From: a virus
DNA length: 21,768 nt
Reading direction: 5' to 3' (one strand)
IMG/VR virus record: IMGVR_UViG_3300025592_000080
Coordinates: 1-21,768 of that record
Shown: positions 2,639-21,644 of the stretch, in pieces
Numbering within the stretch: the first letter of the stretch is position 1
Layout of the letters: every line of letters starts with the position of its first letter
Notes under the pieces: generated by a model
The model's database searches: none
What the model saw: only the letters and a program-made list of their open reading frames with translations
What the model was told of the DNA's origin: nothing
Made by a program: the position numbers and the translations under genes

Positions 2639-3319
2639 ATGAGTTTTAATAAAGTCAAAACGGATCCAGATCTGGGTCTTCAAATACATCAACACTTACT
2701 AGAAGTAGGAGTTGAAACACCAACAATAGAACAAGCATTATCAGTATCACCTAAGACCAAGATAAAGATTATCGAAGAGCATTTCGAGCATATCTGGAAA
2801 ACATTAGGTATGGATCTATCAGATGATTCATTAGCAGAAACACCAAAGAGAATGGCTAAGATGTGGGTTAATGAAACCATGTGGGGTCTTGAACCAGAGA
2901 ACTTTCCTAAATGTACAGCTGTACAGAATAAGATGCATTATGATGCAATGGTTATCGAAAAGGATGTTACTGTAATGTCACAATGTGAACATCATGGAGT
3001 AGTTATTGATGGTGTAGCACATATAGCATATATACCTAATAAGAAGGTATTAGGACTGTCTAAGTTAAATCGTGTAACAGAGTACTTCTCTAAGCGCCCA
3101 CAGATACAAGAACGTTTAACAGTACAGATTGCGGAAGCACTCAAGTTTATCTTAGAAACAGACGATGTAGCTGTTATAGTAGATGCTAGGCATTATTGTG
3201 TTAAATCACGTGGTGTTGAGGATATGCTGTCATCTACTACAACATCACACATGGGCGGGGCATTTAGAGATTTCTCTGAACCTAGAGCGGAGTTTCTTCA
3301 GTTAATTAATAAGAGGTAG
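2639..3319 (+). CDS. folE: GTP cyclohydrolase I
   Basis: FolE converts GTP to 7,8-dihydroneopterin triphosphate, the entry step to both folate and 7-deazaguanine synthesis. The 226-residue length fits E. coli FolE (222). The zinc ligands are visible: C116 and H119 in MSQCEHHG and C187 in ARHYCVKSRG. Other conserved stretches are AETPKRMAKMW (66-76), YIPNKKVLGLSKLNR (131-145), RPQIQERLT (153-161), and a C-terminal STTTSHMGGAF (199-209) followed by EFL. The start has AAAGGAGAG seven bases upstream. The stop is two bases from the dpdA start, so the two are translationally linked. In this context its product feeds QueD. Nothing suggests degradation. Confidence 0.95.
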   Translation: MSFNKVKTDPDLGLQIHQHLLEVGVETPTIEQALSVSPKTKIKIIEEHFEHIWKTLGMDLSDDSLAETPKRMAKMWVNETMWGLEPENFPKCTAVQNKMHYDAMVIEKDVTVMSQCEHHGVVIDGVAHIAYIPNKKVLGLSKLNRVTEYFSKRPQIQERLTVQIAEALKFILETDDVAVIVDARHYCVKSRGVEDMLSSTTTSHMGGAFRDFSEPRAEFLQLINKR

Positions 3320-3321
3320 GA

Positions 3322-4806
3322 ATGAGCTATACATACATAATGTCAGGTATCTCTATGGTTCTAAAGAATGGGGATCCTAAACTTAGAGATAATGTTAAAT
3401 ATTCTAAAATGATAGCTGATACTATTAAGAACTCTAAGGAGTTTCTTAAGTTTGAAATGATGTTTAATGCATACCATGAAGCTGGTTTAATGGGTAAGTA
3501 TCTTTCAAAATATGATTACTTTGGTGGAACATGGCATGCAGATTCTGGTGGTCTGCAAATGGTTACACAGAACAAAACTATTACAGATGAGTGGAAAGAC
3601 AAGATATATAATGTCCAATCTAAACACTCATCATATGCTATGTGTTTTGATGAGATGCCTATTTATGTTGCAGAAACAGCAGGTAATATGTCCAGACTAG
3701 ATTTATCAGGTAGACGATATATCAGGGAATGGACTAGAGATAAAGCTATACAAACAGGTAAGAATGTAAAACGTCAAATAGAGATCATTAGAAAGAACAA
3801 CTCTGATACTAAGGTGTTTATCATTTGTCAGGGTAATGAAACACAAGATTTTGTAAATTATTTTGATGATGTAGTGGACCAGTTACCACCAGATTATTAT
3901 ACATCTATAGCAGGTGTTGCATTATCAGCTGCGTGTACAGGTCTTGGAATGTTAGAATCAATTAAAATGGCCGCATCGTATAGAAAAATGAGTATACCTA
4001 AAGGAATAGGTAAAAAACTACATTTTCTAGGATATGGGTCTATTAACAGACTGCGGCCTATGATGTATCTAGAAGCATCAGGTTATCTAAATGCTGATAT
4101 TACTTTTGATTCATCAACACATGCTATGGGATGTCTTCTAGGAGAGATTAGAATAGCAGATTCTGAAGTTATTAGATCTCAAAAGTCTGCGAAATATGCG
4201 TTTGGTAATAGAAATGGTAGATCTGCTAAAACAGATTCGTTATATAAACATCTTTATGTAAAGTACAGGTCAGTATTTTCTAAATATTATCCTAATCTAA
4301 CTGAAGACGCTTATCTAGCTGTTGTAGGAATTGATCATACTACATCTAAAAGATATCGTAAACGTAGAATGGCTAAAGATACTATTAAAAAGTATAATAT
4401 TTCTATAAGGGATTCTATAGTTATTCAATTATATACCAGATTTCTAGTTGCTTTTGATTCCTATACTACATTCTCTAAAGATATGGATAAGAGATACCAT
4501 AATATTAATTCTGGTACTATCGATGATTCGACAGCACTTGCTGAACTAGTTAATTCTGGTAATATCGATGATTCGACAGCACTTGCACTCCTAGCAAAGG
4601 TTAAAACAACTGAAGAATATGATACATGGGAGAAGAAATATGAACGGTATGTCGAATCTAACCGTATTAAAGATTATGCAACATTGGATGATGCTAAAGC
4701 TGACAAACCGATTACTTTAAATAATGAGAAAACAGAAACTCCTACAACATCTCCAGCTAGAGATAAAAAGGCATATCAACCAAGCCCAGCAGTAACATTA
4801 GGATAA
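3322..4806 (+). CDS. dpdA: TGT-fold DNA transglycosylase (DpdA-type), 7-deazaguanine insertion
   Basis: A homologue of tRNA-guanine transglycosylase that in phages exchanges guanine in DNA for a 7-deazaguanine base. Visible landmarks in order: HADSGGLQ (72-79, TGT has DSGGFQ, with D74 as predicted general base), CFDEMPIY (108-115, matching FDEC..Y), AGVALSAACTGLG (197-209, matching the GG.A.GE loop), LHFLGYGS (233-240), and ITFDSSTHAMG (260-270), with D263 as predicted nucleophile. The C-terminal CxCxxC...H zinc site of tRNA-type TGT is absent, supporting a DNA-directed enzyme. The protein is 494 residues against about 375 for bacterial TGT. The extra ~110 C-terminal residues include a 15-residue tandem repeat and a Thr/Pro-rich tail. 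It sits directly after folE and before the phosphoribosyltransferase gene. Confidence 0.88.
   Translation: MSYTYIMSGISMVLKNGDPKLRDNVKYSKMIADTIKNSKEFLKFEMMFNAYHEAGLMGKYLSKYDYFGGTWHADSGGLQMVTQNKTITDEWKDKIYNVQSKHSSYAMCFDEMPIYVAETAGNMSRLDLSGRRYIREWTRDKAIQTGKNVKRQIEIIRKNNSDTKVFIICQGNETQDFVNYFDDVVDQLPPDYYTSIAGVALSAACTGLGMLESIKMAASYRKMSIPKGIGKKLHFLGYGSINRLRPMMYLEASGYLNADITFDSSTHAMGCLLGEIRIADSEVIRSQKSAKYAFGNRNGRSAKTDSLYKHLYVKYRSVFSKYYPNLTEDAYLAVVGIDHTTSKRYRKRRMAKDTIKKYNISIRDSIVIQLYTRFLVAFDSYTTFSKDMDKRYHNINSGTIDDSTALAELVNSGNIDDSTALALLAKVKTTEEYDTWEKKYERYVESNRIKDYATLDDAKADKPITLNNEKTETPTTSPARDKKAYQPSPAVTLG
4507..4586 (+). repeat. In-frame tandem repeat in the dpdA C-terminal region
   Basis: Two copies at 45-bp offset (4507-4541 and 4552-4586). 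The 21-bp cores at 4521-4541 and 4566-4586 are identical and read CGATGATTCG followed by ACAGCACTTGC. They encode NSG(T/N)IDDSTALA twice (residues 396-407 and 411-422). The sequence identity indicates a recent duplication. Confidence 0.9.
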
Positions 4807-4814
4807 GGAATATT

Positions 4815-5249
4815 ATGACAGATAAATTATATTATACTTGGGAAGAATACAATACTGATATCAAACGTATTGTAAAAGATTATAAATTTGATTCAGTAGT
4901 GGCTCTCTATAGAGGGTCATTACCAATCGCTACTCACCTTACTAATATCACAGATGCTACTATGTCTGTGATTAAGTATCAATCATACGGTAAAGATAAG
5001 AAACAATCACTTGATAATAAGACACCCCAATGGTTAGTACAAGGAATGATTAGACCTAAGAAGGTACTGATTATTGATGATATCTATGATACAGGGTCTA
5101 CTATTAGGAACTGTAAAGACTTTATAGGAGATGTAAGTTGGGATATTACCTATCTTACCCTCTTTGGTAAGAAGAATGATGACTCAGTTGAGTATCTAAG
5201 AGAGAATGAAGGAAGATGGGTTGTCTTTCCTTGGGAAACTATTACTTGA
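4815..5249 (+). CDS. Gpt-like guanine/xanthine phosphoribosyltransferase
   Basis: Type I phosphoribosyltransferases join a purine base to PRPP. The 144-residue protein has the PRPP loop VLIIDDIYDTGST (84-96) and the upstream LYRGSLP loop (31-37). Its layout resembles E. coli Gpt (152 residues): an N-terminal YTWEEY (Gpt VTWDML), KYQSYGKDK (Gpt SSYDHDN), and a C-terminal RWVVFPWE (134-141). This last corresponds to TWIEQPWD in Gpt, whose Trp-Ile packs on the guanine ring. It follows dpdA by eight bases, in the same transcript. Since DpdA releases free guanine, a guanine salvage role is likely but inferred. The promoter for queD begins inside its stop codon. Confidence 0.75.
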   Translation: MTDKLYYTWEEYNTDIKRIVKDYKFDSVVALYRGSLPIATHLTNITDATMSVIKYQSYGKDKKQSLDNKTPQWLVQGMIRPKKVLIIDDIYDTGSTIRNCKDFIGDVSWDITYLTLFGKKNDDSVEYLRENEGRWVVFPWETIT

Positions 5250-5274
5250 CATTCTCTCGTAAGTAGTGTATAAT
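5246..5274 (+). promoter_or_regulatory. Sigma-70-type promoter P4
   Basis: TTGACA 5246-5251 overlaps the stop codon (TGA 5247-5249) of the phosphoribosyltransferase gene. A 17-bp spacer is followed by TATAAT 5269-5274. It drives queD and queC. Confidence 0.85.
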
Positions 5275-5306
5275 ACATGGTATATAATTAATAAGAGGTA
5301 AGTAAG

Positions 5307-5873
5307 ATGGGTAAGTGGGTAATTGATAAAACTATTGAGTTCTGTTACGGACATAGGGTTTGGACACAGGTTCTTAATGGTGAGTATTCGGATGATTTAC
5401 AATGTGCGTGCAGGCATCTACATGGTCATGAAGGTAAGATACAGGTACACCTAACAGGTGATGGACTAGACCCAACTGGTATGGTCACTGACTTTAGACA
5501 CTTAGAATGGCTTAAGAAGTGGATTAATACTAATGTAGATCATCAATTTATATTAGATATTAACGATCCACTATATGATCAGTTATTAACTTCTAATCTA
5601 GGTCATTTAGGTATTCATTCACTTTATGAAGTATTTGTACCAGGAACTGAGCATTTAACTGGATGGAAAATTAATCTTAAAGATACTAAGCCAGGTACAC
5701 CTGAATATGAGTACAAAGAGGGATTCTTTATTGTTGATTTTGTACCAACATCAGAGAATTTATCTAAATGGATAGCTGAGTTAGTACAAGTTAAAATGAA
5801 ACCTCTTAATGTAACAGTAGATTCCATTGAATGGTGGGAAACACCTAAATCACGGAGTATCTACTATGTCTAA
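5307..5873 (+). CDS. queD: 6-carboxy-5,6,7,8-tetrahydropterin synthase
   Basis: QueD turns dihydroneopterin triphosphate into 6-carboxytetrahydropterin. The zinc histidines are H16 (FCYGHRVW, 12-19), H39 and H41 (CRHLHGHEG, 35-43). C35 matches the catalytic cysteine of the CxxxHxH motif. D78-H79 (VDHQFIL, 77-83) matches the catalytic Asp/His pair, and PTSENLSKWI (147-156) carries the pterin-anchoring Glu E150. The length of 188 residues exceeds E. coli QueD (121) because of an insertion around residues 95-140, as seen in several longer family members. The ribosome site is AGAGG. The gene overlaps queC by eight bases, which fits coupled translation of successive pathway steps. Confidence 0.93.
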   Translation: MGKWVIDKTIEFCYGHRVWTQVLNGEYSDDLQCACRHLHGHEGKIQVHLTGDGLDPTGMVTDFRHLEWLKKWINTNVDHQFILDINDPLYDQLLTSNLGHLGIHSLYEVFVPGTEHLTGWKINLKDTKPGTPEYEYKEGFFIVDFVPTSENLSKWIAELVQVKMKPLNVTVDSIEWWETPKSRSIYYV

Positions 5874-6648
5874 TATCATTACCAAATCTAAAGAAACTGT
5901 AAAAGGTAAATCTGTATTACTATTTTCTGGTGGAATGGATTCAATAATGTTTGATAAGCTATTAAATCCTGATGTATTATTATATATCCCATCAGGTTCA
6001 GCTTATGAAGAAATAGAAACAGAAAAAGTTCATGAGTTAGCTAACTCAGGTTGGATTGATTGGAACAAGTTAGTGATATTAGATGAAGTTTTAAATCTAA
6101 AAGCTTTCGAAAGAGATGATATGATTGTACCTAATAGAAATGCTTATCTTGTACTGTTAGCATCTCATTATGGTGAAAAGATTTATCTTGGATCTGTATA
6201 TGGAGATAGATCATTTGATAAAGATAGAACTTTTTATGGATTTATGGAGAATTTACTTAATCATATATGGCAAGCACAACATTGGACAGAAACACGTCGA
6301 TTTACTGTAGAATCCCCCTATAAAGATGTTACTAAGACTGAGTTAGTTGATGAATATATTAAAGCAGGAGGCTATGTAGAAGCACTAATGGATTCATATT
6401 CGTGCTATTCTGGTGACCCACAACCTTGTGGTATATGCAAACCTTGTTTCAGAAAAGCTGTATCTTTAATCAATAATAAGATCTACATTCCTGAAGATTA
6501 TTATAGAGCTAATCCGTTTACAGCAGAATGGTTAGTAGATGTACTACCAGAAATGAAAAAAGGTACATACAGAGGTAAAGAGGATAAAGAGACCTTAGAT
6601 GCTATTAATGAGCAACAATGGCTCTCTGTATGTGATGCATTAGATTGA
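5866..6648 (+). CDS. queC: 7-cyano-7-deazaguanine (preQ0) synthase
   Basis: QueC is an ATP-dependent PP-loop ligase converting 7-carboxy-7-deazaguanine to preQ0. The ATP-binding loop LLFSGGMDS is at residues 18-26. The C-terminal zinc knuckle has C180, C188, C191 and C194 (SCYSGDPQPCGICKPC). Conserved VPNRNAYLVLLA (88-99) matches the V.NRN...L..A stretch of the family. ATG 5866 is chosen because it gives a normal distance to the PP-loop and an 8-base overlap with queD. The upstream ATG at 5827 would add 13 atypical residues. At 260 residues it is slightly longer than E. coli QueC (231). There is no fused amidotransferase domain, unlike Gat-QueC of phage 9g. Confidence 0.94.
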   Translation: MSNIITKSKETVKGKSVLLFSGGMDSIMFDKLLNPDVLLYIPSGSAYEEIETEKVHELANSGWIDWNKLVILDEVLNLKAFERDDMIVPNRNAYLVLLASHYGEKIYLGSVYGDRSFDKDRTFYGFMENLLNHIWQAQHWTETRRFTVESPYKDVTKTELVDEYIKAGGYVEALMDSYSCYSGDPQPCGICKPCFRKAVSLINNKIYIPEDYYRANPFTAEWLVDVLPEMKKGTYRGKEDKETLDAINEQQWLSVCDALD

Positions 6649-8827: not shown

Positions 8828-10927
8828 ATGATGAATAAAGCATTACTTTCCAAGCTAATGGCACGAGAGGATTTAGAGGTGATTGAAGGGAACTTCAAGA
8901 CAGCCTCTTTTGATCCTAAAAATCGTATCGTTAGACTTCCTCTATTAAAAGAAGAGTTTAATGAAGCAGCTACTCTGTTCATTGGACATGAGATTGGACA
9001 TGCTCTGTACACACCAGACTTCTTCTCTCATGAAGAAAAGAAAGCTGAGTTAGCAGATATTCCTTTTGATATTATTAACATTGTAGAAGATGTTCGTATT
9101 GAACGTAAGGTCCGTGAGTTCTATCCTGGTCTAGTTAATGACTTTCTTAAAGGTTATAAGAGATTAATGGATGACAACTTCTTCGGAGTTAAAGATAAAG
9201 AACCAAATGATTTAAAATTCCTAGATAGACTTAATTTAAAAGCTAAACTAAATGCTCTTATTGATGTTGACTTTTCTTTTAAAGAAACATTAATGATTGA
9301 GAAAGTTAATTCAGTAGAAACATGGGACGATACTGTTGCTGTTTCACGTGCTTTAATGGAGTTTATTAAAGAGCAGCATCAAGAAGAAGAAGAACAACAA
9401 CAAGAGGTTTTAGAAGAATCAAAAGGTCCGTCTTCTGAAGAAAGCACAAATGAGGAAGAAGAAGATTCAGAGTCAAATGAAGAGCAAACTTCAATATCGG
9501 CTGAAGAAGAAGAAGATTCATCTGAAGAAACTCAAGTAACTGGGGTTAAAGGAACTTCAGGTGAAGTAACTGAAGATGAAGATGAACCTGATTATACTTC
9601 TGATACAGATCGTTCAATGCGCCAAAATGAATCTAAGATGGTTCATTCCGGTGATGATACAACATATATTAGAGTTACTAAAAATCAAATAGCTGATGAG
9701 TTCATTCATACTGAAGAAGATTTAGTACTTTCTAATAAAGCGTTTGAAGAAAGATATGGTCAATGGGATGAATTTTGGCAGCATAAAGAGGCTATGAAGG
9801 AAGAGTATTCATCCTTTATTAAAGAGATTAAACCTGCTGTTAATGCTATGGTTCAGCAGTTTGAACTTCGCAAGTCAGCAATGGAGTCTAGAAAGATTAG
9901 AGAGTCTACTTCAGGTTCAATTGATGTTAATAAATTATGGCAATACAAGCTAGATGATCATATCTTCAAGACTGTTATGTCAATGCCTGATGCCAAGAAT
10001 CATGGTTTGTTAATGTATATTGACTATTCAAGTTCAATGACTCGTAGAATTTATGAAACATTGAAACAGGCTGTAATCCTTTCTATGTTCGCCAAGCGTG
10101 TAGGTATTCCGTTCGAATTATACGGTTTTACTACTGATGCAACTAAGTATAGAGAAGCACGTGCTAAGGATCTTGAGAACCTCAGAGATGGTGCAGAGAG
10201 TAAGTATGATTATAAGTCATGGGCATTAAAATTAGTTAAGATTGCTGATTCTAAATGGTCTAAAATTAAAATGCATACAATGTTTGAAAGAGCTATGTTT
10301 TCGGCATGGCCATATTCTGGTCGTACTCCTTTTACAGAACCTGCTTTCCAGTTAGGTGGAACACCATTAAATGAGACTATTTCAATAGCTCATATTATGA
10401 CAGATGATTTTGTTAAAAGAAATCATATAGAGAAGATGAATGTTGTGTTCTTAACCGATGGTGATGCTCAGGATATGAGATTGCGAGAACATCTTAACCA
10501 ATGGACGGATACAATCGTTTGGGATATTGAAGGTCATGGTAAGATTGAGTTAGCTGATAAATATAATAATTATGTTCCTTCTGAATCAAGACGACAACAA
10601 GCTAAGAAAACGCTGCTTGGATCCCTCTCAAAGAAATACAATGTAATTGGTTTCTTTTTAACTGATCGTAGAAGTCAGGTAGGATCAAATGGTTACCATA
10701 TCTATAATAATTATGGTGGTTATGATTCATTTATTACAGTTCATGACAAAAGACTTCAGGCAGTTGATGATGAATTTGTTCCTAAAGCTGACTCGGATGC
10801 CAACATTTCTACCGAGGCTACTGATCGTAAAAGAATGAATTCGATCAAACGTGACTTTAAGAAGTTTCAAAAGAACAAGAAAATGAATAAGTTGATTGCT
10901 CAAGAGTTTGCTAGATTGGTGGCTTAA
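8828..10927 (+). CDS. CobT-like VWA protein with zincin-type metallopeptidase motif
   Basis: A 699-residue protein in three parts. The N-terminal ~180 residues carry HEIGH (54-58) and, downstream, NIVEDVRIE (84-92), with E87 as candidate third zinc ligand. This HExxH-plus-Glu layout is that of gluzincins. Residues about 183-270 are an extremely acidic, probably disordered linker. The C-terminal part is a von Willebrand A domain with MIDAS residues D399-Y-S401-S-S403, T512 (GGTPLNE) and D544 (LTDGDA). Such proteins are usually annotated CobT-like because the VWA part resembles the cobaltochelatase subunit. They pair with MoxR/CobS-type AAA+ ATPases, and one is encoded at 12370. No cobalamin gene is visible, so a chaperone/protease-like complex is at least as likely as metal chelation. 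ATG 8828 and 8831 are both usable. Confidence 0.75.
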   Translation: MMNKALLSKLMAREDLEVIEGNFKTASFDPKNRIVRLPLLKEEFNEAATLFIGHEIGHALYTPDFFSHEEKKAELADIPFDIINIVEDVRIERKVREFYPGLVNDFLKGYKRLMDDNFFGVKDKEPNDLKFLDRLNLKAKLNALIDVDFSFKETLMIEKVNSVETWDDTVAVSRALMEFIKEQHQEEEEQQQEVLEESKGPSSEESTNEEEEDSESNEEQTSISAEEEEDSSEETQVTGVKGTSGEVTEDEDEPDYTSDTDRSMRQNESKMVHSGDDTTYIRVTKNQIADEFIHTEEDLVLSNKAFEERYGQWDEFWQHKEAMKEEYSSFIKEIKPAVNAMVQQFELRKSAMESRKIRESTSGSIDVNKLWQYKLDDHIFKTVMSMPDAKNHGLLMYIDYSSSMTRRIYETLKQAVILSMFAKRVGIPFELYGFTTDATKYREARAKDLENLRDGAESKYDYKSWALKLVKIADSKWSKIKMHTMFERAMFSAWPYSGRTPFTEPAFQLGGTPLNETISIAHIMTDDFVKRNHIEKMNVVFLTDGDAQDMRLREHLNQWTDTIVWDIEGHGKIELADKYNNYVPSESRRQQAKKTLLGSLSKKYNVIGFFLTDRRSQVGSNGYHIYNNYGGYDSFITVHDKRLQAVDDEFVPKADSDANISTEATDRKRMNSIKRDFKKFQKNKKMNKLIAQEFARLVA

Positions 10928-12369: not shown

Positions 12370-13509
12370 ATGAGAAAGATTGAGAAAGTTGTTGATTATC
12401 TAATGTCAACCAATCCGGAGAAAAAGGTGTATTCTCGGAAAGAGTTAAATGCAGCGTCTGAGACTGTCACAGGAACTGGATTAGCCGGAGCTATGTTTAA
12501 GATGTTAAATGCTGTTGATCGTGGTACATATGACATTACAGGTGTCATAGTTCCTCTTCGAGCACCTAAAGTACAAGAAGAGGTACCGTCTGTCGAAAAG
12601 ACCATTGTCCGTGAAGTAAGAAAGACTGTTCTTGTTGATGCCTTTGTTCCGTCATATATACCACAAGTTGATCCCAATTTTGTTAAGTGGGGAGCTTATA
12701 AAGATGTATTAAAGATCATTAAATCAGAGTTCTTTTACCCTATCTTTGTTACTGGTCTTTCAGGTAACGGTAAGACGATGATGGTGGAACAAGCAGCAGC
12801 TAATGCTAAACGTGAATTCATTCGTGTTCAGATTTCACCAGAAACAGATCAAGATGATTTAATTGGTGGTTTCCGTCTTGTTGAAGGTGAGACTGTTTTT
12901 GAGAAAGGTCCTGTTGTTAAAGCGATGGAACTTGGTGCAATTTTGTTAATTGATGAGATTGACCGCGGTTCTAATAAGATTATGGCACTTCAGGGTGTTC
13001 TAGAAGGTAAGCCAATTGTTATTAAAAAGACAGGTGAGTTGATTGAACCTAAGCCTGGTTTTAACGTTATTGCTACTGCCAATACAAAAGGTCAGGGTTC
13101 AGAGTCAGGTAAGTTTTCAGCCGCTACAATCATTGATGAAGCGTTCTTAGAGAGGTTTACTATCACTATTGAACAACCATTTGCCCCTGTTGTTACAGAA
13201 GAAAAGATCTTAATGAACCACATGAAAGCATATGGTAAAGTTGATTCAGAGTTTGCTAAATTGTTAGTGTCATGGGCGGACGGTATCCGTAAAACGTTTT
13301 ATGATGATGGTGTTGATGATGTTATTTCGACTCGCCGTTTAGGTCATATTGTTCAGACATATGCTATCTTTGAAGATCGTATGAAGTCAATTGATTTAGC
13401 TATTTCACGTTTCGATGAGGATACTAAGAATACGTTTAAAGAGTTATATACCAAGTTCGATGCTAATGTTAATGCAGAGCAAAATGAAGAAATTGATCAT
13501 ACTATTTAA
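12370..13509 (+). CDS. MoxR/CobS-type AAA+ ATPase
   Basis: A 379-residue ATPase. Walker A is GLSGNGKT (129-136), Walker B ILLIDEID (191-198), sensor 1 lies in NVIATANT (232-239), and R262 in LERF is a candidate arginine finger. The segment QDDLIGGFRL (161-170) with FEKGPVVKAMELGAIL is typical of the MoxR/CobS clade. The first ~90 residues are a separate region with helix-turn-helix-like sequence (about 20-55) and a charged linker. MoxR/CobS ATPases act with VWA-domain partners, and the CobT-like protein at 8828 is the obvious one. In aerobic cobaltochelatase the third subunit would be CobN, which is not seen here. GAAGAGG lies nine bases before ATG. Confidence 0.85.
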   Translation: MRKIEKVVDYLMSTNPEKKVYSRKELNAASETVTGTGLAGAMFKMLNAVDRGTYDITGVIVPLRAPKVQEEVPSVEKTIVREVRKTVLVDAFVPSYIPQVDPNFVKWGAYKDVLKIIKSEFFYPIFVTGLSGNGKTMMVEQAAANAKREFIRVQISPETDQDDLIGGFRLVEGETVFEKGPVVKAMELGAILLIDEIDRGSNKIMALQGVLEGKPIVIKKTGELIEPKPGFNVIATANTKGQGSESGKFSAATIIDEAFLERFTITIEQPFAPVVTEEKILMNHMKAYGKVDSEFAKLLVSWADGIRKTFYDDGVDDVISTRRLGHIVQTYAIFEDRMKSIDLAISRFDEDTKNTFKELYTKFDANVNAEQNEEIDHTI

Positions 13510-14795: not shown

Positions 14796-14871
14796 TCCCT
14801 GTTAGCTCAGTTGGTAGAGCAGATGACTGTTAATCATCATGTCCGTGGTTCGAGCCCACGACAGGGAGCCA
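14796..14871 (+). tRNA. tRNA-Asn (anticodon GUU)
   Basis: A complete cloverleaf: acceptor TCCCTGT/ACAGGGA (14796-14802, 14861-14867), D stem GCTC/GAGC, anticodon stem GATGA/TCATC with loop CTGTTAA (anticodon GTT at 14829-14831), T stem CGTGG/CCACG with loop TTCGAGC, discriminator G 14868 and encoded CCA 14869-14871. All stems pair perfectly. The gene lies between P13 and a protein gene, so it is probably processed out of a polycistronic transcript. GUU is one of the four GUN anticodons whose G34 is replaced by queuosine in bacteria. Confidence 0.97.
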
Positions 14872-18167: not shown

Positions 18168-18461
18168 CTATCGATTCATATACGCAGTGAATCCCATATA
18201 AGCACCAACAACAGATGCTTGACCCATGTAAAATAGACCAAGTAGATCACCTAGTGCATCGACACGTTCTACAGATACTAAAGGTGTAAACAGTATACCA
18301 GTGAATACAATCATGCCAAACATAGACATCCATGCCATTTTCTTTTGGGAATCAAGTTTCTCTTCTTTAAGTTCTATGTTCATTATACGTTCACGGCGAT
18401 CAACTTCTGTTTTAGTTAATTTACCGTCATTATCTATATCATACTTACTAAATATTTCCAT
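18168..18461 (-). CDS. EF-hand protein with two membrane segments
   Basis: A 97-residue protein. Residues 8-19 form a canonical EF-hand loop, D8-I-D10-N-D12-G-K-L-T-K-T-E19, with Asp/Asp/Asp at positions 1, 3 and 5 and Glu at 12. This predicts Ca2+ binding. A charged helix follows (RRERIMNIELKEEKLDSQKK), then two hydrophobic segments, about 43-63 (MAWMSMFGMIVFTGILFTPLV) and 70-92. Two membrane helices and small size allow a holin-like or virion-membrane role, but the N-terminal EF-hand is unusual for a holin. It is the last gene of the minus-strand structural cluster, 16 bases after the tape-measure-like gene. GGAG lies upstream of the start. Confidence 0.75.
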   Translation of the reverse strand: MEIFSKYDIDNDGKLTKTEVDRRERIMNIELKEEKLDSQKKMAWMSMFGMIVFTGILFTPLVSVERVDALGDLLGLFYMGQASVVGAYMGFTAYMNR

Positions 18462-18477
18462 TTATCTACTCCTTATA

Positions 18478-20040
18478 TCATAGTGTAGAGGCTGTGCGCC
18501 ATGAAAGATCATTATTATTCCGACTTTTCGCTTTTGGTTTTTCATTAACATTATATGTAAATTTCGTTGAAGAGTCTGAGATATTATTTTGATAGTTTTT
18601 AACCGCATCCGACCTAGATGCCTTGTCTTGGTTATATTCTTCTTGTAGTAATTTTTTATTTTCAGCTTGTTTCTCTGATACAGAGTTCCTTTTAATAAAT
18701 TTCGGACCTGTATGTCCTGGTGTACCCCAAAGAGGGTCAACCATAGTATCCGAATTAGTTGTTACTGTAGGTACTGACTTCTTATCTAGCTGTTGTGTAG
18801 AAGTATCCATTGATACCTCATTCCCTCCATAGAATGACATCATCTTTTTAATATCATCCGGTACAAGATAATCAAAAAATAAGTTTTTTATAAGCTTCCA
18901 TGCATCAAGAACAAAATTACTAAGGAAATTGACAATACCTCCTTTACCATCTAGTCCTATTAGAATTTGTTTAACACCGTTCATCATTTTATCAGATGCT
19001 ATACCCATCTCCTCAGGTGTTTTTGCAGAAAAGAAACCAAAAAATCCATCAATAAAAGATACAAATCCCAGAAATGTATCAGATATTGCCACAAGCCCAT
19101 TAAGCATAGTGTTACCAAGGAAATCACCTACATGAAGTGCAAACGTGTGGAGTCCACCGATAAACTCACCAAGATTTCTTGTAAAGTTGTCCCAATATTC
19201 TAGAGCCTTACCTTCTGTAAATCGTTCTTTAAGTTGTTTTATTTTTTCTCCAAATTGCCCTGCAGATAAGAGTTCAAGAAACCCAGCTATAGCTAATACT
19301 CCAGTAACACCTGCAAGTAACGCAAGAATACCTTTCCCACCCTTTATTAATCCGGCCTTAGATAATTTGGAAGTCTTTCCGGGTGTACGTCTAAGCTCAG
19401 TTGTTGCATTAGCTAAATCATCCCCCCTATTCTTTCTAAGATCATCCATTCTAATAGCAGTATTCAGTCGGTCTTCTTTAATTTCACCAGTAAAGAATTT
19501 TCTGGCCATTCTGTTAGTATCCCCTTCTTCTTGAAGGCCTTTCTCTCGAATTTTGTTGAATACTGTTATTTCATTAACATCTTGACCTGAAGCTGCTACC
19601 TCAATAAAAATGTTATCTAGTTTTCTCTCCTGTCTTTTTGTAAGATAACTCTTATAGTCTTCTTGTTTTAGATTAGTACCTGAAAAATCATTAAAGAGTT
19701 TACGAATATCTATTAGTACATCAGCAATAATGGCAAGATTTCTATCCATTTTAACTTGTCTTTTGTCATTCATCTCACCGAATTTTACTCTTGACTTCTC
19801 TGCTTTATCGTCATCATCAAACTCTTTTAGCCAACCATATGACGACACACCTAAGCTCAAAAGATCCGTACCACGTCTTTTATCTTCTAATTCAAAAAGT
19901 TCCTTAGAATTTGCTGTTTGCATTCTATCAAAGAACTCTATAGAATCAAATGAACTTGAGAGTTCTTTAGAATAACTCATTTGATTAGAATTTTGTGTCT
20001 TTAACTCGTCAAGTACACTATTAAAAGTAGCATCTGCCAT
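18478..20040 (-). CDS. Tape-measure-like / large tail protein
   Basis: A 520-residue protein. The first ~225 residues are charged and helical. Residues 237-259 are strongly hydrophobic (GILALLAGVTGVLAIAGFLELL), with a second hydrophobic stretch near 308-338 containing FLGFVSFIDGFFGFF. The last ~115 residues are polar and probably disordered. A long helical protein with internal hydrophobic segments placed right after a frameshifting chaperone-like pair is how tape-measure genes are organised in tailed phages. T4 gp29 has 590 residues. I see no specific sequence match to gp29, so a membrane-interacting baseplate or hub protein is the alternative. AGGAAG precedes ATG, and the start is four bases after the gp51-like ORF. 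Confidence 0.5.
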   Translation of the reverse strand: MADATFNSVLDELKTQNSNQMSYSKELSSSFDSIEFFDRMQTANSKELFELEDKRRGTDLLSLGVSSYGWLKEFDDDDKAEKSRVKFGEMNDKRQVKMDRNLAIIADVLIDIRKLFNDFSGTNLKQEDYKSYLTKRQERKLDNIFIEVAASGQDVNEITVFNKIREKGLQEEGDTNRMARKFFTGEIKEDRLNTAIRMDDLRKNRGDDLANATTELRRTPGKTSKLSKAGLIKGGKGILALLAGVTGVLAIAGFLELLSAGQFGEKIKQLKERFTEGKALEYWDNFTRNLGEFIGGLHTFALHVGDFLGNTMLNGLVAISDTFLGFVSFIDGFFGFFSAKTPEEMGIASDKMMNGVKQILIGLDGKGGIVNFLSNFVLDAWKLIKNLFFDYLVPDDIKKMMSFYGGNEVSMDTSTQQLDKKSVPTVTTNSDTMVDPLWGTPGHTGPKFIKRNSVSEKQAENKKLLQEEYNQDKASRSDAVKNYQNNISDSSTKFTYNVNEKPKAKSRNNNDLSWRTASTL

Positions 20041-20044
20041 ATCT

Positions 20045-20224
20045 TTACTTCCTATTTAATCTTTCGTTTTCTTCTTCTATAAAACTAATAAGCATTTGTG
20101 TATATACTTCCCTTTCCCAAGGTATCATAGACTCTAACTCGGTTAGAGAATAGTTATAATGCTGCATCATAGCAAAATTTGTAGAATAATAATGCCGAAG
20201 TGATGTATGAGAAAGGGTTATTAA
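20045..20224 (-). CDS. gp51-like ORF, probably made by -1 frameshift from gp26
   Basis: A 59-codon reading frame open in the -1 frame from the end of gp26 (first codon TTA 20224-20222) to TAA 20047-20045. It lacks a start codon with a ribosome site. The first in-frame ATG pair (residues 19-20) has none upstream. The C-terminal part YNYSLTELESMIPWEREVYT, then QMLISFIEEENER, has the look of downstream tail-chaperone frames (hydrophobic-Glu-Leu, then PWERE or PFERE, then an acidic helix). Fused to gp26 it gives a 291-residue protein. T4 gp51 is a baseplate hub assembly factor, and assignment to that family is by position and pattern only. Confidence 0.7.
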   Translation of the reverse strand, partial: LITLSHTSLRHYYSTNFAMMQHYNYSLTELESMIPWEREVYTQMLISFIEEENERLNRK

Positions 20225-20919
20225 AAAAAATTGTGGATACCTTCTAATACAACATCTTGCTTATCTTTACACTTATGACAAGTAAATGTCCTTTTTAATG
20301 TCGTTTTAGGGACATTAGCTAGAAATCCTGTAACCTTTTCAAACTGATCTGAGGAAAATGATTCAACAAATTCCGTTAATTCAGTTTCCGATGTATCGGC
20401 CGATTCATATATAATATCCCCCTCATATATGTAATCGATACAATGTGTAAGTTTAGTTATAATATCAGAGCTCTCTTCCATCTTTAAAACTTCTGTAATA
20501 TTAGGATATTTTAATTTAACACCTATAGTATCAGATAATTTAATATCTTTATTCTCCATAATATCTAGATTAGACACAGCTATATCAGTTTCAAGGTTAA
20601 ATTTTAATGGATTTGGTTCATCACATGAGCCACACTTATATGATACTTCTGATGTCTCTCCAACTGACTTTGATTTTAGTTGGCTGTAGATATATTCAAT
20701 ATCAAACATTTTTAATGTTCTAGTAGATACTACGTTATCAATAAAACATCTATCAATAACATCTGTAATAGCTAATAACATAGAATTAACATTGTCTGAT
20801 TCTAAAGCCAACATTAATATCTTTTCTTCTCCCACTAAGTATGGCCTAAATTTTACTGTAGCCCCTGTAGATGGTATAGTTAATGTATAAGTTGGTACTG
20901 CTAATTTAGGTAGTGCCAT
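20221..20919 (-). CDS. 26: gp26-like baseplate hub assembly protein
   Basis: A 232-residue protein of the T4 baseplate gp26 type. It has an N-terminal LPKLAVPTYTLTIPSTG and KFRPYLVGEEKILMLALES (1-41), which is the family signature. Two CxxC pairs, C96/C99 (KCGSCDEPN) and C214/C217 (TCHKCKDKQ), probably form a zinc ribbon. T4 gp26 (208 residues) is needed for hub assembly. Here the gene ends in a slippery T-run with a gp51-like frame in -1, so two products, 232 and 291 residues, are predicted. The arrangement mimics tail assembly chaperone pairs that precede tape-measure genes. It starts 23 bases after the tail-tube-family gene. Confidence 0.85.
   Translation of the reverse strand: MALPKLAVPTYTLTIPSTGATVKFRPYLVGEEKILMLALESDNVNSMLLAITDVIDRCFIDNVVSTRTLKMFDIEYIYSQLKSKSVGETSEVSYKCGSCDEPNPLKFNLETDIAVSNLDIMENKDIKLSDTIGVKLKYPNITEVLKMEESSDIITKLTHCIDYIYEGDIIYESADTSETELTEFVESFSSDQFEKVTGFLANVPKTTLKRTFTCHKCKDKQDVVLEGIHNFF
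20224..20230 (-). promoter_or_regulatory. Slippery heptamer for programmed -1 frameshift
   Basis: On the minus strand the gp26 codons AAT TTT TTT TAA contain T-TTT-TTT directly before the stop. This is a canonical X-XXX-XXX slip site within an 8-T run (20223-20230). An SD-like AGAAGG (20245-20240) lies nine bases upstream, the distance at which such sequences stimulate -1 frameshifting in bacterial dnaX. A 7-bp hairpin, CTCTAAC/GTTAGAG (20132-20148), occurs about 75 bases downstream and is too far to be a typical stimulator. Confidence 0.75.
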
Positions 20920-20942: not shown

Positions 20943-21644
20943 TTAAATTATGTTGCCTATTAGATTTGATGCAGTTCCAATCATACCATCCATTAAGCCT
21001 TCTTCTTCCCAATTGTCAAATGTCACTGATACTGTACATCGTACTATATCATCAGATGTATTAGATAATGTTATTGTATCAATAGCGGTAGGAAAAGCGT
21101 TCATTAACTTAACAGAATATGATGGTATAAAATCACCTTCGGCCATTTGTTGTATTTGTATATCTGTTGAATATACATTCTTATAATTCACTCTAAGCTC
21201 ATCTAAATTATCAGATGGAGGTACAATTAAATCCATCCAGGATTTAAAGTATTTAAGTATGTAATAATCATTAGTTAAGAGAAATGTAAACTTAACAGTA
21301 TCATCAGTAGCTAATCCATATGGTATCTTAACAGATTTCATACCAGTTCTTCTTGTATACATATCAAAATTCCTACCTGGAATTGCACAGGATTCTGCTA
21401 GTAGATATATATCCCTAGGATCATTAAGAAATGATGTTGGTGAAAATCCTCCTCCAGTAACAACAGATTTTAAACCTGTTTTAACTACAGATCCTATAGC
21501 ATCTCCAACAGAACCAGCACCCCCTGTAAGTAGATTTTGACCCGCGGGGTTATTCATATATATAGCAAACTTATTAGCGCGCGCTAATCCTCCTCTACGA
21601 GAGATAGTTGATTTTAATGTATCTATATTAGCTGGTAATGTCAT
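20943..21644 (-). CDS. Tail-tube-family protein, gp54-like baseplate tube initiator
   Basis: A 233-residue protein with the late part of the T4 tail-tube fold family: VKFTFLLTNDYYILKYFKSW (about 117-136), then YKNVYSTDIQIQQM (153-166), then SVKLMNAFPTAIDTITLSN (about 177-195), then RCTVSVTFDNWE (about 202-213). This F..SW...Y...Y, then fP..i..i.ls, then vtF.y pattern is shared by gp19, gp48 and gp54. At 233 residues it is longer than gp19 (163) and shorter than gp54 (320). Placement among baseplate hub genes favours gp54, the tube initiator, over the main tube protein. An N-terminal Gly-rich stretch (about 30-68) looks flexible. Start and preceding stop abut (TAAATG). Confidence 0.65.
   Translation of the reverse strand: MTLPANIDTLKSTISRRGGLARANKFAIYMNNPAGQNLLTGGAGSVGDAIGSVVKTGLKSVVTGGGFSPTSFLNDPRDIYLLAESCAIPGRNFDMYTRRTGMKSVKIPYGLATDDTVKFTFLLTNDYYILKYFKSWMDLIVPPSDNLDELRVNYKNVYSTDIQIQQMAEGDFIPSYSVKLMNAFPTAIDTITLSNTSDDIVRCTVSVTFDNWEEEGLMDGMIGTASNLIGNII

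Follow-up and report, generated by a model that had tools for sequence, protein, structure and literature searches.

gp26 and the frame that follows it

The window, that is, the whole stretch of 21,768 nt that was analysed, comes from an uncultivated marine phage related to T4 (IMG/VR record IMGVR_UViG_3300025592_000080). On its minus strand, a tail tube-like gene, gp26, a gp51-like frame and a gene for a 520-aa protein follow one another (Table 1). In profile searches, the gp26 product matched PF12322 (T4_baseplate) with E=5.5e-56 and phrog_150 with E=1.6e-57. The gene ends with the codons AAT TTT TTT TAA, and its run of eight T residues (20223..20230, minus strand) contains the heptamer T_TTT_TTT. 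The initial annotation had proposed a slip site directly before the gp26 stop with AGAAGG nine bases further upstream, and the coordinates bear out the phase of the heptamer, the position of the TAA and the placement of AGAAGG.

Table 1 Features of the gp26/gp51 locus in the window
Feature	Position	Strand	Remarks
Tail tube-like protein (gp19/gp54 family), upstream neighbour	20943..21644	-	Phage_TTP_2, E=5.4e-6; phrog_45 (tail tube), E=6.3e-29
gp26, short tail assembly chaperone (TAC-N), 0 frame, 232 aa	20221..20919	-	PF12322, phrog_150
AGAAGG, Shine-Dalgarno-like, putative 5' stimulator	20240..20245	-	9 nt upstream of the heptamer
Slippery heptamer T_TTT_TTT	20224..20230	-	Codon phase right for a tandem -1 slip
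TAA, 0-frame stop of gp26	20221..20223	-	Abuts the heptamer
-1 frame, gp51-type C-terminal extension (TAC-C), 59 codons and TAA	20045..20224	-	phrog_634
Stretch 3' of the slip site, weak predicted structure in the window phage	20150..20222	-	MFE -7.4 kcal/mol
520-aa protein, predicted all-helical, putative tape measure	18478..20040	-	Starts 4 nt after the stop of the -1 frame

The -1 frame, closed by a TAA at 20047..20045 (minus strand), was said to be open for 59 codons without a usable start and to be gp51-like, and both statements hold. Its first ATG is codon 19 (position 20170), with no GTG or TTG earlier, and a profile search matched it to phrog_634, the baseplate hub assembly catalyst (gp51), with E=2.5e-23. 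It also gave a weak match to the C-terminal end of the phrog_150 profile, which is to be expected if some phrog_150 members are natural fusions. A run of T residues alone proves little, and the comparative test across homologues is decisive; T7 runs occur 6 times in the window against a mean of 14.7 in shuffled sequences, i.e. they are if anything rarer than by chance.

The slip site in gp26/gp51 homologues

From scans of IMG/VR and from isolate genomes, 178 distinct gp26-type 3' ends were gathered, of which 160 are followed by a recognisable gp51. The results of the search for 3' slip sites and -1 frames, which the initial annotation had suggested as a check, were positive for 160 of the 160 distinct pairs, a figure that overstates independence since the homologues are mutually related: each has an in-phase T_TTT_TTN before the gp26 stop, and its gp51 lies in the -1 frame. 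The heptamer is TTTTTTC in 92 pairs, TTTTTTT in 50, TTTTTTA in 16 and TTTTTTG in 2, and the stop codon directly abuts it in 36 pairs and follows one codon later in 114. Among 687 control ORF ends taken from these loci, from which all gp26 hits had been removed, an in-phase T6 was found no more than 9 nt from the stop in 2 and no more than 48 nt from it in 6. The first Phe codon of the motif is TTT in all 160 pairs (background 1194/1635), and the codon preceding it, which specifies Ser (from two codon families), Asp, Asn or Ala, nevertheless always ends in T (160/160; background 3929/5168). Of 222 unrelated sites at which control genes encode [NSDA]-F-[FL], only 71 have the T+TTT combination.

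The 18 ends outside the 160 pairs are all accounted for. Five of them carry the slip site and gave no gp51 match in the available sequence; these include Stenotrophomonas phage YB07 (L193), in which a short -1 frame is visible after the slip site, and one half of a broken gp26 (L189). Eleven are genes of T4-type phages, six short and five long (L033, L197-L201), and the remaining two are the other half of the L189 gp26 and that of Vibrio phage K469. The gp26 of L189 (1362-2095) is split in the middle by an apparent frame disruption, possibly an assembly error, and its terminal slip site is intact. In about eight marine loci (L064, L146, L149, L152, L162, L170, L178 and L185) the 0-frame stop lies 24-27 nt past the slip site, so that the short form would bear a longer tail.

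The slip site recurs in phages P-SSM2 and S-PM2, Aeromonas phages PX29 and AS-zj, Vibrio phages nt-1 and D527, Sinorhizobium phage phiM12, Caulobacter phage Cr30, Rhizobium phage RHph_Y68, Stenotrophomonas phages YB07 and DLP_6, Delftia phage PhiW-14 and Nitratidesulfovibrio phage SRB7757. Homopolymers are error-prone in sequencing, and the junction might be suspected to be a sequencing or assembly error at the T run, or the trace of a decaying gene. The same arrangement, however, recurs in the finished genomes of isolates from many genera, and a sequencing error at the junction is ruled out by the identical junction in several contigs (L007-L010); the probability of this explanation is practically nil.

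A different explanation would place the slip in transcription, RNA polymerase slipping on the run of eight T residues and ribosomes then translating the altered mRNA. Runs of comparable length are not confined to the window phage, since 21 of the 160 homologues have eight T residues and 29 have seven, but the other 110 have only six followed by a non-T base. Six T residues are too short for efficient slippage of bacterial polymerase. Moreover, the codon phase and the upstream Shine-Dalgarno-like element, which are marks of ribosomal slippage, are kept. Polymerase slippage may contribute in the window phage; as the explanation of the arrangement it is extremely unlikely.

Coding in the -1 frame and start codons

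In 145 representatives, the -1 frame downstream of the slip site is open in every case and the 0 and +1 frames are closed in every case. Substitutions just 3' of the slip site fall on the three codon positions of the -1 frame in the proportions 0.30/0.21/0.49, and the same pattern was observed in pairs without any start codon. No start codon is found within the first 13 codons of the -1 frame in 71 of the 145 representatives.

These data bear on the simplest alternative, namely a separate gp51 gene of the usual kind, whose translation begins at a start codon of its own or through termination and reinitiation at the gp26 stop, with the T run being incidental. The records of P-SSM2, S-PM2 and nt-1 do annotate gp51 separately, and about half of the homologues have an early start in the -1 frame (48 ATG and 25 GTG/TTG among the 160 pairs), in several of them as a stop-overlapping TAATG or TGATG. 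On the other side, 87 of the 160 pairs have no start codon ahead of the conserved aromatic motif, and in the window phage the frame has no start before codon 19, where initiation would drop the conserved SLxxYYxxNF segment. A gp51 frame with a ribosome site of its own, which, combined with the absence of a slip site, the initial annotation had named as evidence that would speak against its reading, was sought among the ATG-bearing frames and found in 0 of 45. Furthermore, T_TTT_TTN is invariant, and the segment ahead of any start evolves as coding sequence of the -1 frame. We consider it very unlikely that gp51 is such a separate gene; reinitiation might add some free gp51 in the lineages with TAATG.

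Elements flanking the slip site

Pairing with the anti-Shine-Dalgarno sequence was computed for 9-mers upstream of the heptamer. In the gp26/gp51 family as a whole, this pairing peaks where the 9-mer ends 6-9 nt 5' of the heptamer, and it beats that of synonymous recodings with z of about -11; glycine conservation alone is therefore no explanation for it. In the window, the upstream 9-mer reaches a pairing energy of -4.6 kcal/mol at best.

On the 3' side, roughly the first 50 nt past the slip site fold better than synonymous recodings in the 145 representatives (mean z -1.4, as compared with +0.23 for a control segment), with pairing that varies between lineages. The corresponding stretch of the window (Table 1) gave z -1.64 against dinucleotide shuffles and z -0.64 against synonymous recodings. 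A downstream stimulator is thus supported by sequence comparison for the gp26/gp51 family and not for the window phage. Of the elements that characterise programmed -1 sites, an in-phase X_XXY_YYZ heptamer and a Shine-Dalgarno-like element are present in the window, while a 3' structure is supported for the family and weak in the window.

Because the slip site is invariant and phased, the Shine-Dalgarno-like pairing is in excess, the substitutions in the -1 frame are those of a coding sequence and none of the ATG-bearing gp51 frames has a ribosome site of its own, we regard it as nearly certain that a programmed -1 frameshift joins gp26 and the gp51 frame in the chaperone locus of this marine phage. 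The -1 frameshift and the gene order resembling that of G/GT (short chaperone, -1 extension, putative tape measure), both put forward in the initial annotation, are supported comparatively.

Proposed mechanism

The computation shows the slip site with its phase and conservation, that the -1 frame is coding, and the homologies of the two parts; from these we infer the occurrence and efficiency of slippage and the chaperone activity of the products. Most ribosomes would stop at the TAA after T_TTT_TTT, giving gp26, the short form (TAC-N). A minority would slip by -1 on the heptamer, aided by AGAAGG, and slow termination at the abutting TAA would possibly aid the slippage as well. The slipped ribosomes would read 59 more codons and produce a gp26-gp51 fusion of 291 aa, the long form (TAC-NC), which would yield a junction peptide of the type GIHNFFLITLSH. 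By analogy with gpG/gpGT of phage lambda, the short form would coat the product of the neighbouring putative tape measure gene, the C-terminal part of the long form would recruit tail tube subunits, and frameshifting would set the ratio between the two forms.

Neighbouring genes and the probable chaperone role

The initial annotation had placed a tape-measure-like gene four bases after the -1 frame. The spacing is correct, and the identity of the gene is putative, resting on its position and helical content. Its 520-aa product has hydrophobic segments near residues 231-263 and 312-334, and an AF2 model of it is all-helical with low confidence (pLDDT 53.6). Searches with Pfam and PHROG profiles gave no family match at E<0.001 and no tape measure profile, and tblastn detected no phage relative. 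Complete ORFs at the same place in relatives encode 430-816 aa, and in Caulobacter phage Cr30 a CDS annotated as tail tape measure protein lies one small ORF beyond the gp26/gp51 pair. After the tape measure candidate, the window encodes a 97-aa protein (18168-18461, minus strand; phrog_27150) with an N-terminal EF-hand-like DxDxDG motif and two hydrophobic segments.

The AF2 model of gp26 has a mean pLDDT of 94.3. When it was compared with PDB structures by Foldseek, the top probabilities among the matches listed were those of the HK97 chaperone 2ob9 (0.69) and of 3fgx (0.66), with E values that are not significant; for 2ob9, E was 0.28 and the query-normalised TM score 0.23. This predicted fold match to the HK97 tail assembly chaperone is suggestive, and a profile search for gp26 among PDB sequences returned no significant match. 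Homology, gene order and the literature make a chaperone role of gp26/gp51 likely.

The two-gene arrangement of T4

T4 transcribes its genes for gp26 (208 aa) and gp51 (249 aa) divergently, and no slip site was found at the 3' end of T4 gp26. Like the window gp26, both T4 proteins belong to PF12322. T4 gp51 matched this family with E=3.9e-52 and, over residues 147-246, phrog_634 with E=1.2e-23; it aligns with the whole of the predicted gp26-gp51 fusion, the -1 frame of the window aligning with its C-terminus. T4 gp26 and T4 gp51 match each other at 2e-6. Judged from these alignments, T4 gp51 is a contiguous gp26-like domain with a gp51-type tail and is a paralogue of gp26, so that T4 would make its short and long forms from two paralogous genes, in contrast to the window phage. 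The earlier statement that gp26 and gp51 are separate genes in T4 is correct as to there being two genes; it falls short in that T4 gp51 is not merely the counterpart of the -1 frame and includes a gp26-like domain.

In a tree of the first domain with 33 rows, one branch (98/99) sets the frameshift-type proteins apart and another (100/100) the long T4-type genes. The tree, which is unrooted and does not place the short genes with certainty, is consistent with a single switch. Aeromonas phages PX29 and AS-zj and Vibrio phage nt-1, which are filed in Straboviridae, the family of T4, keep the frameshift signature.

The -1 overlap in Ackermannviridae

In the Ackermannviridae phages Det7 (L204), Limestonevirus Ds16CZ (L205) and Campanilevirus GR28A (L211), a gp51-like frame lies exactly -1 over the gp26 stop, as it does in the related Vibrio phages K469 and K471 (L194, L210). 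An X_XXY_YYZ heptamer was sought in these five phages and none was found, and the gp51-like frame of Det7 contains no start codon. Phage SH-Ab 15599, filed in Ackermannviridae, keeps T_TTT_TTT. We suggest, tentatively and with considerable doubt, that a cassette of three parts (a Shine-Dalgarno-like element about 10 nt upstream, T_TTT_TTN and lineage-specific 3' hairpins) might be ancestral to the gp26/gp51 phages and have been replaced once, in the T4 branch, by duplication into short and long genes, and that the Ackermannviridae might keep the -1 overlap, having lost the canonical heptamer, and reach it by another, undescribed route.

Comparison with known systems

The locus resembles lambda gpG/gpGT in having a short chaperone, a -1 extension and a (putative) tape measure gene directly downstream. 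It differs from it in that the slip site is T_TTT_TTN with a Shine-Dalgarno-like element upstream and that the first domain is longer (232 aa). The Escherichia coli dnaX cassette has a homopolymeric heptamer with a Shine-Dalgarno-like element some 10 nt 5' of it, much as in the window. In dnaX, however, the heptamer is A_AAA_AAG and is followed by a strong 3' hairpin, whereas the hairpin is weak or absent in the window phage. By their description, the chaperones of Vandenendeviridae and Andersonviridae (phage Adele, PMC12846349) are similar in their -1 frameshift at GTTTTT, at the 3' end of TAC-N and upstream of the tape measure gene; these are different phage families from that of the window phage.

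The window locus carries a PF12322 TAC-N, a gp51-like extension and a phased poly-T signature, the features of T4-like chaperone loci as far as these can be recognised in sequence. That gp26 and gp51 are the T4-lineage counterpart of tail assembly chaperones, as the initial annotation suggested, is in agreement with our comparison; it was already published in 2022 and is not new. The abstract of that study reportedly describes frameshifting as conserved in several T4-like groups and T4 itself as relying on genes 26 and 51. In it, Vladimirov, Gautam and Davidson (2022, Virology 566:9-15) identified the T4-like tail assembly chaperones; the work is cited here through PMC10885494 and PMC12846349. 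The former cites it in a passage on T4-like phages that have a short gene alongside a longer, fused one, the latter in a passage on poly-T signals for -1 frameshifting in the TAC-N genes of T4-like phages. As far as these passages describe them, those chaperones are of the same gene class and the idea is the same; the window phage represents an uncultivated marine lineage, and the tests of control frequency, Shine-Dalgarno pairing, start codons and codon positions were done anew.

According to a 2016 review, G-T frameshifting is conserved widely among phages with long tails, T4 being the exception (PMC5009743). In a 2010 review, T4 gp26 and gp51 were regarded as hub assembly chaperones, gp51 being required for assembly, absent from the final particle and essential, with a function then unknown (PMC3004832). 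On the present reading, frameshift-controlled tail assembly would reach deep into the T4-like lineage, the exception of the 2016 review, and T4 gp51 would be explained as the long form of the chaperone. In the public records fetched, gp51 is a stand-alone gene, omitted or unannotated (e.g. P-SSM2, L002; S-PM2, L003; S-CAM1, L203), and none of these records joins the gp26 and gp51 frames. The present analysis adds an uncultivated member that is well tested, statistics for the slip site and its stimulators, and a possible exception in Ackermannviridae.

Other features of the window

On the plus strand, positions 2639-6648 encode GTP cyclohydrolase I (2639-3319), a 6-pyruvoyl tetrahydropterin synthase/QueD-like protein (5307-5873) and QueC (5827-6648), a cluster whose sequence is consistent with 7-deazaguanine synthesis. 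Within it, a 494-aa ORF (3322-4806, plus strand) gave no Pfam match; by unaided reading, its sequence resembles a queuosine-type transglycosylase. The regions 8828-10927 and 12370-13509 (plus strand) contain a MoxR/CobS-like AAA ATPase (AAA_5) near an acidic protein of 699 aa. The latter had no Pfam match and may, again by unaided reading, be a CobT/VWA-like partner of the ATPase. A single tRNA gene, tRNA-Asn (GTT), is located at 14796-14871 on the plus strand.
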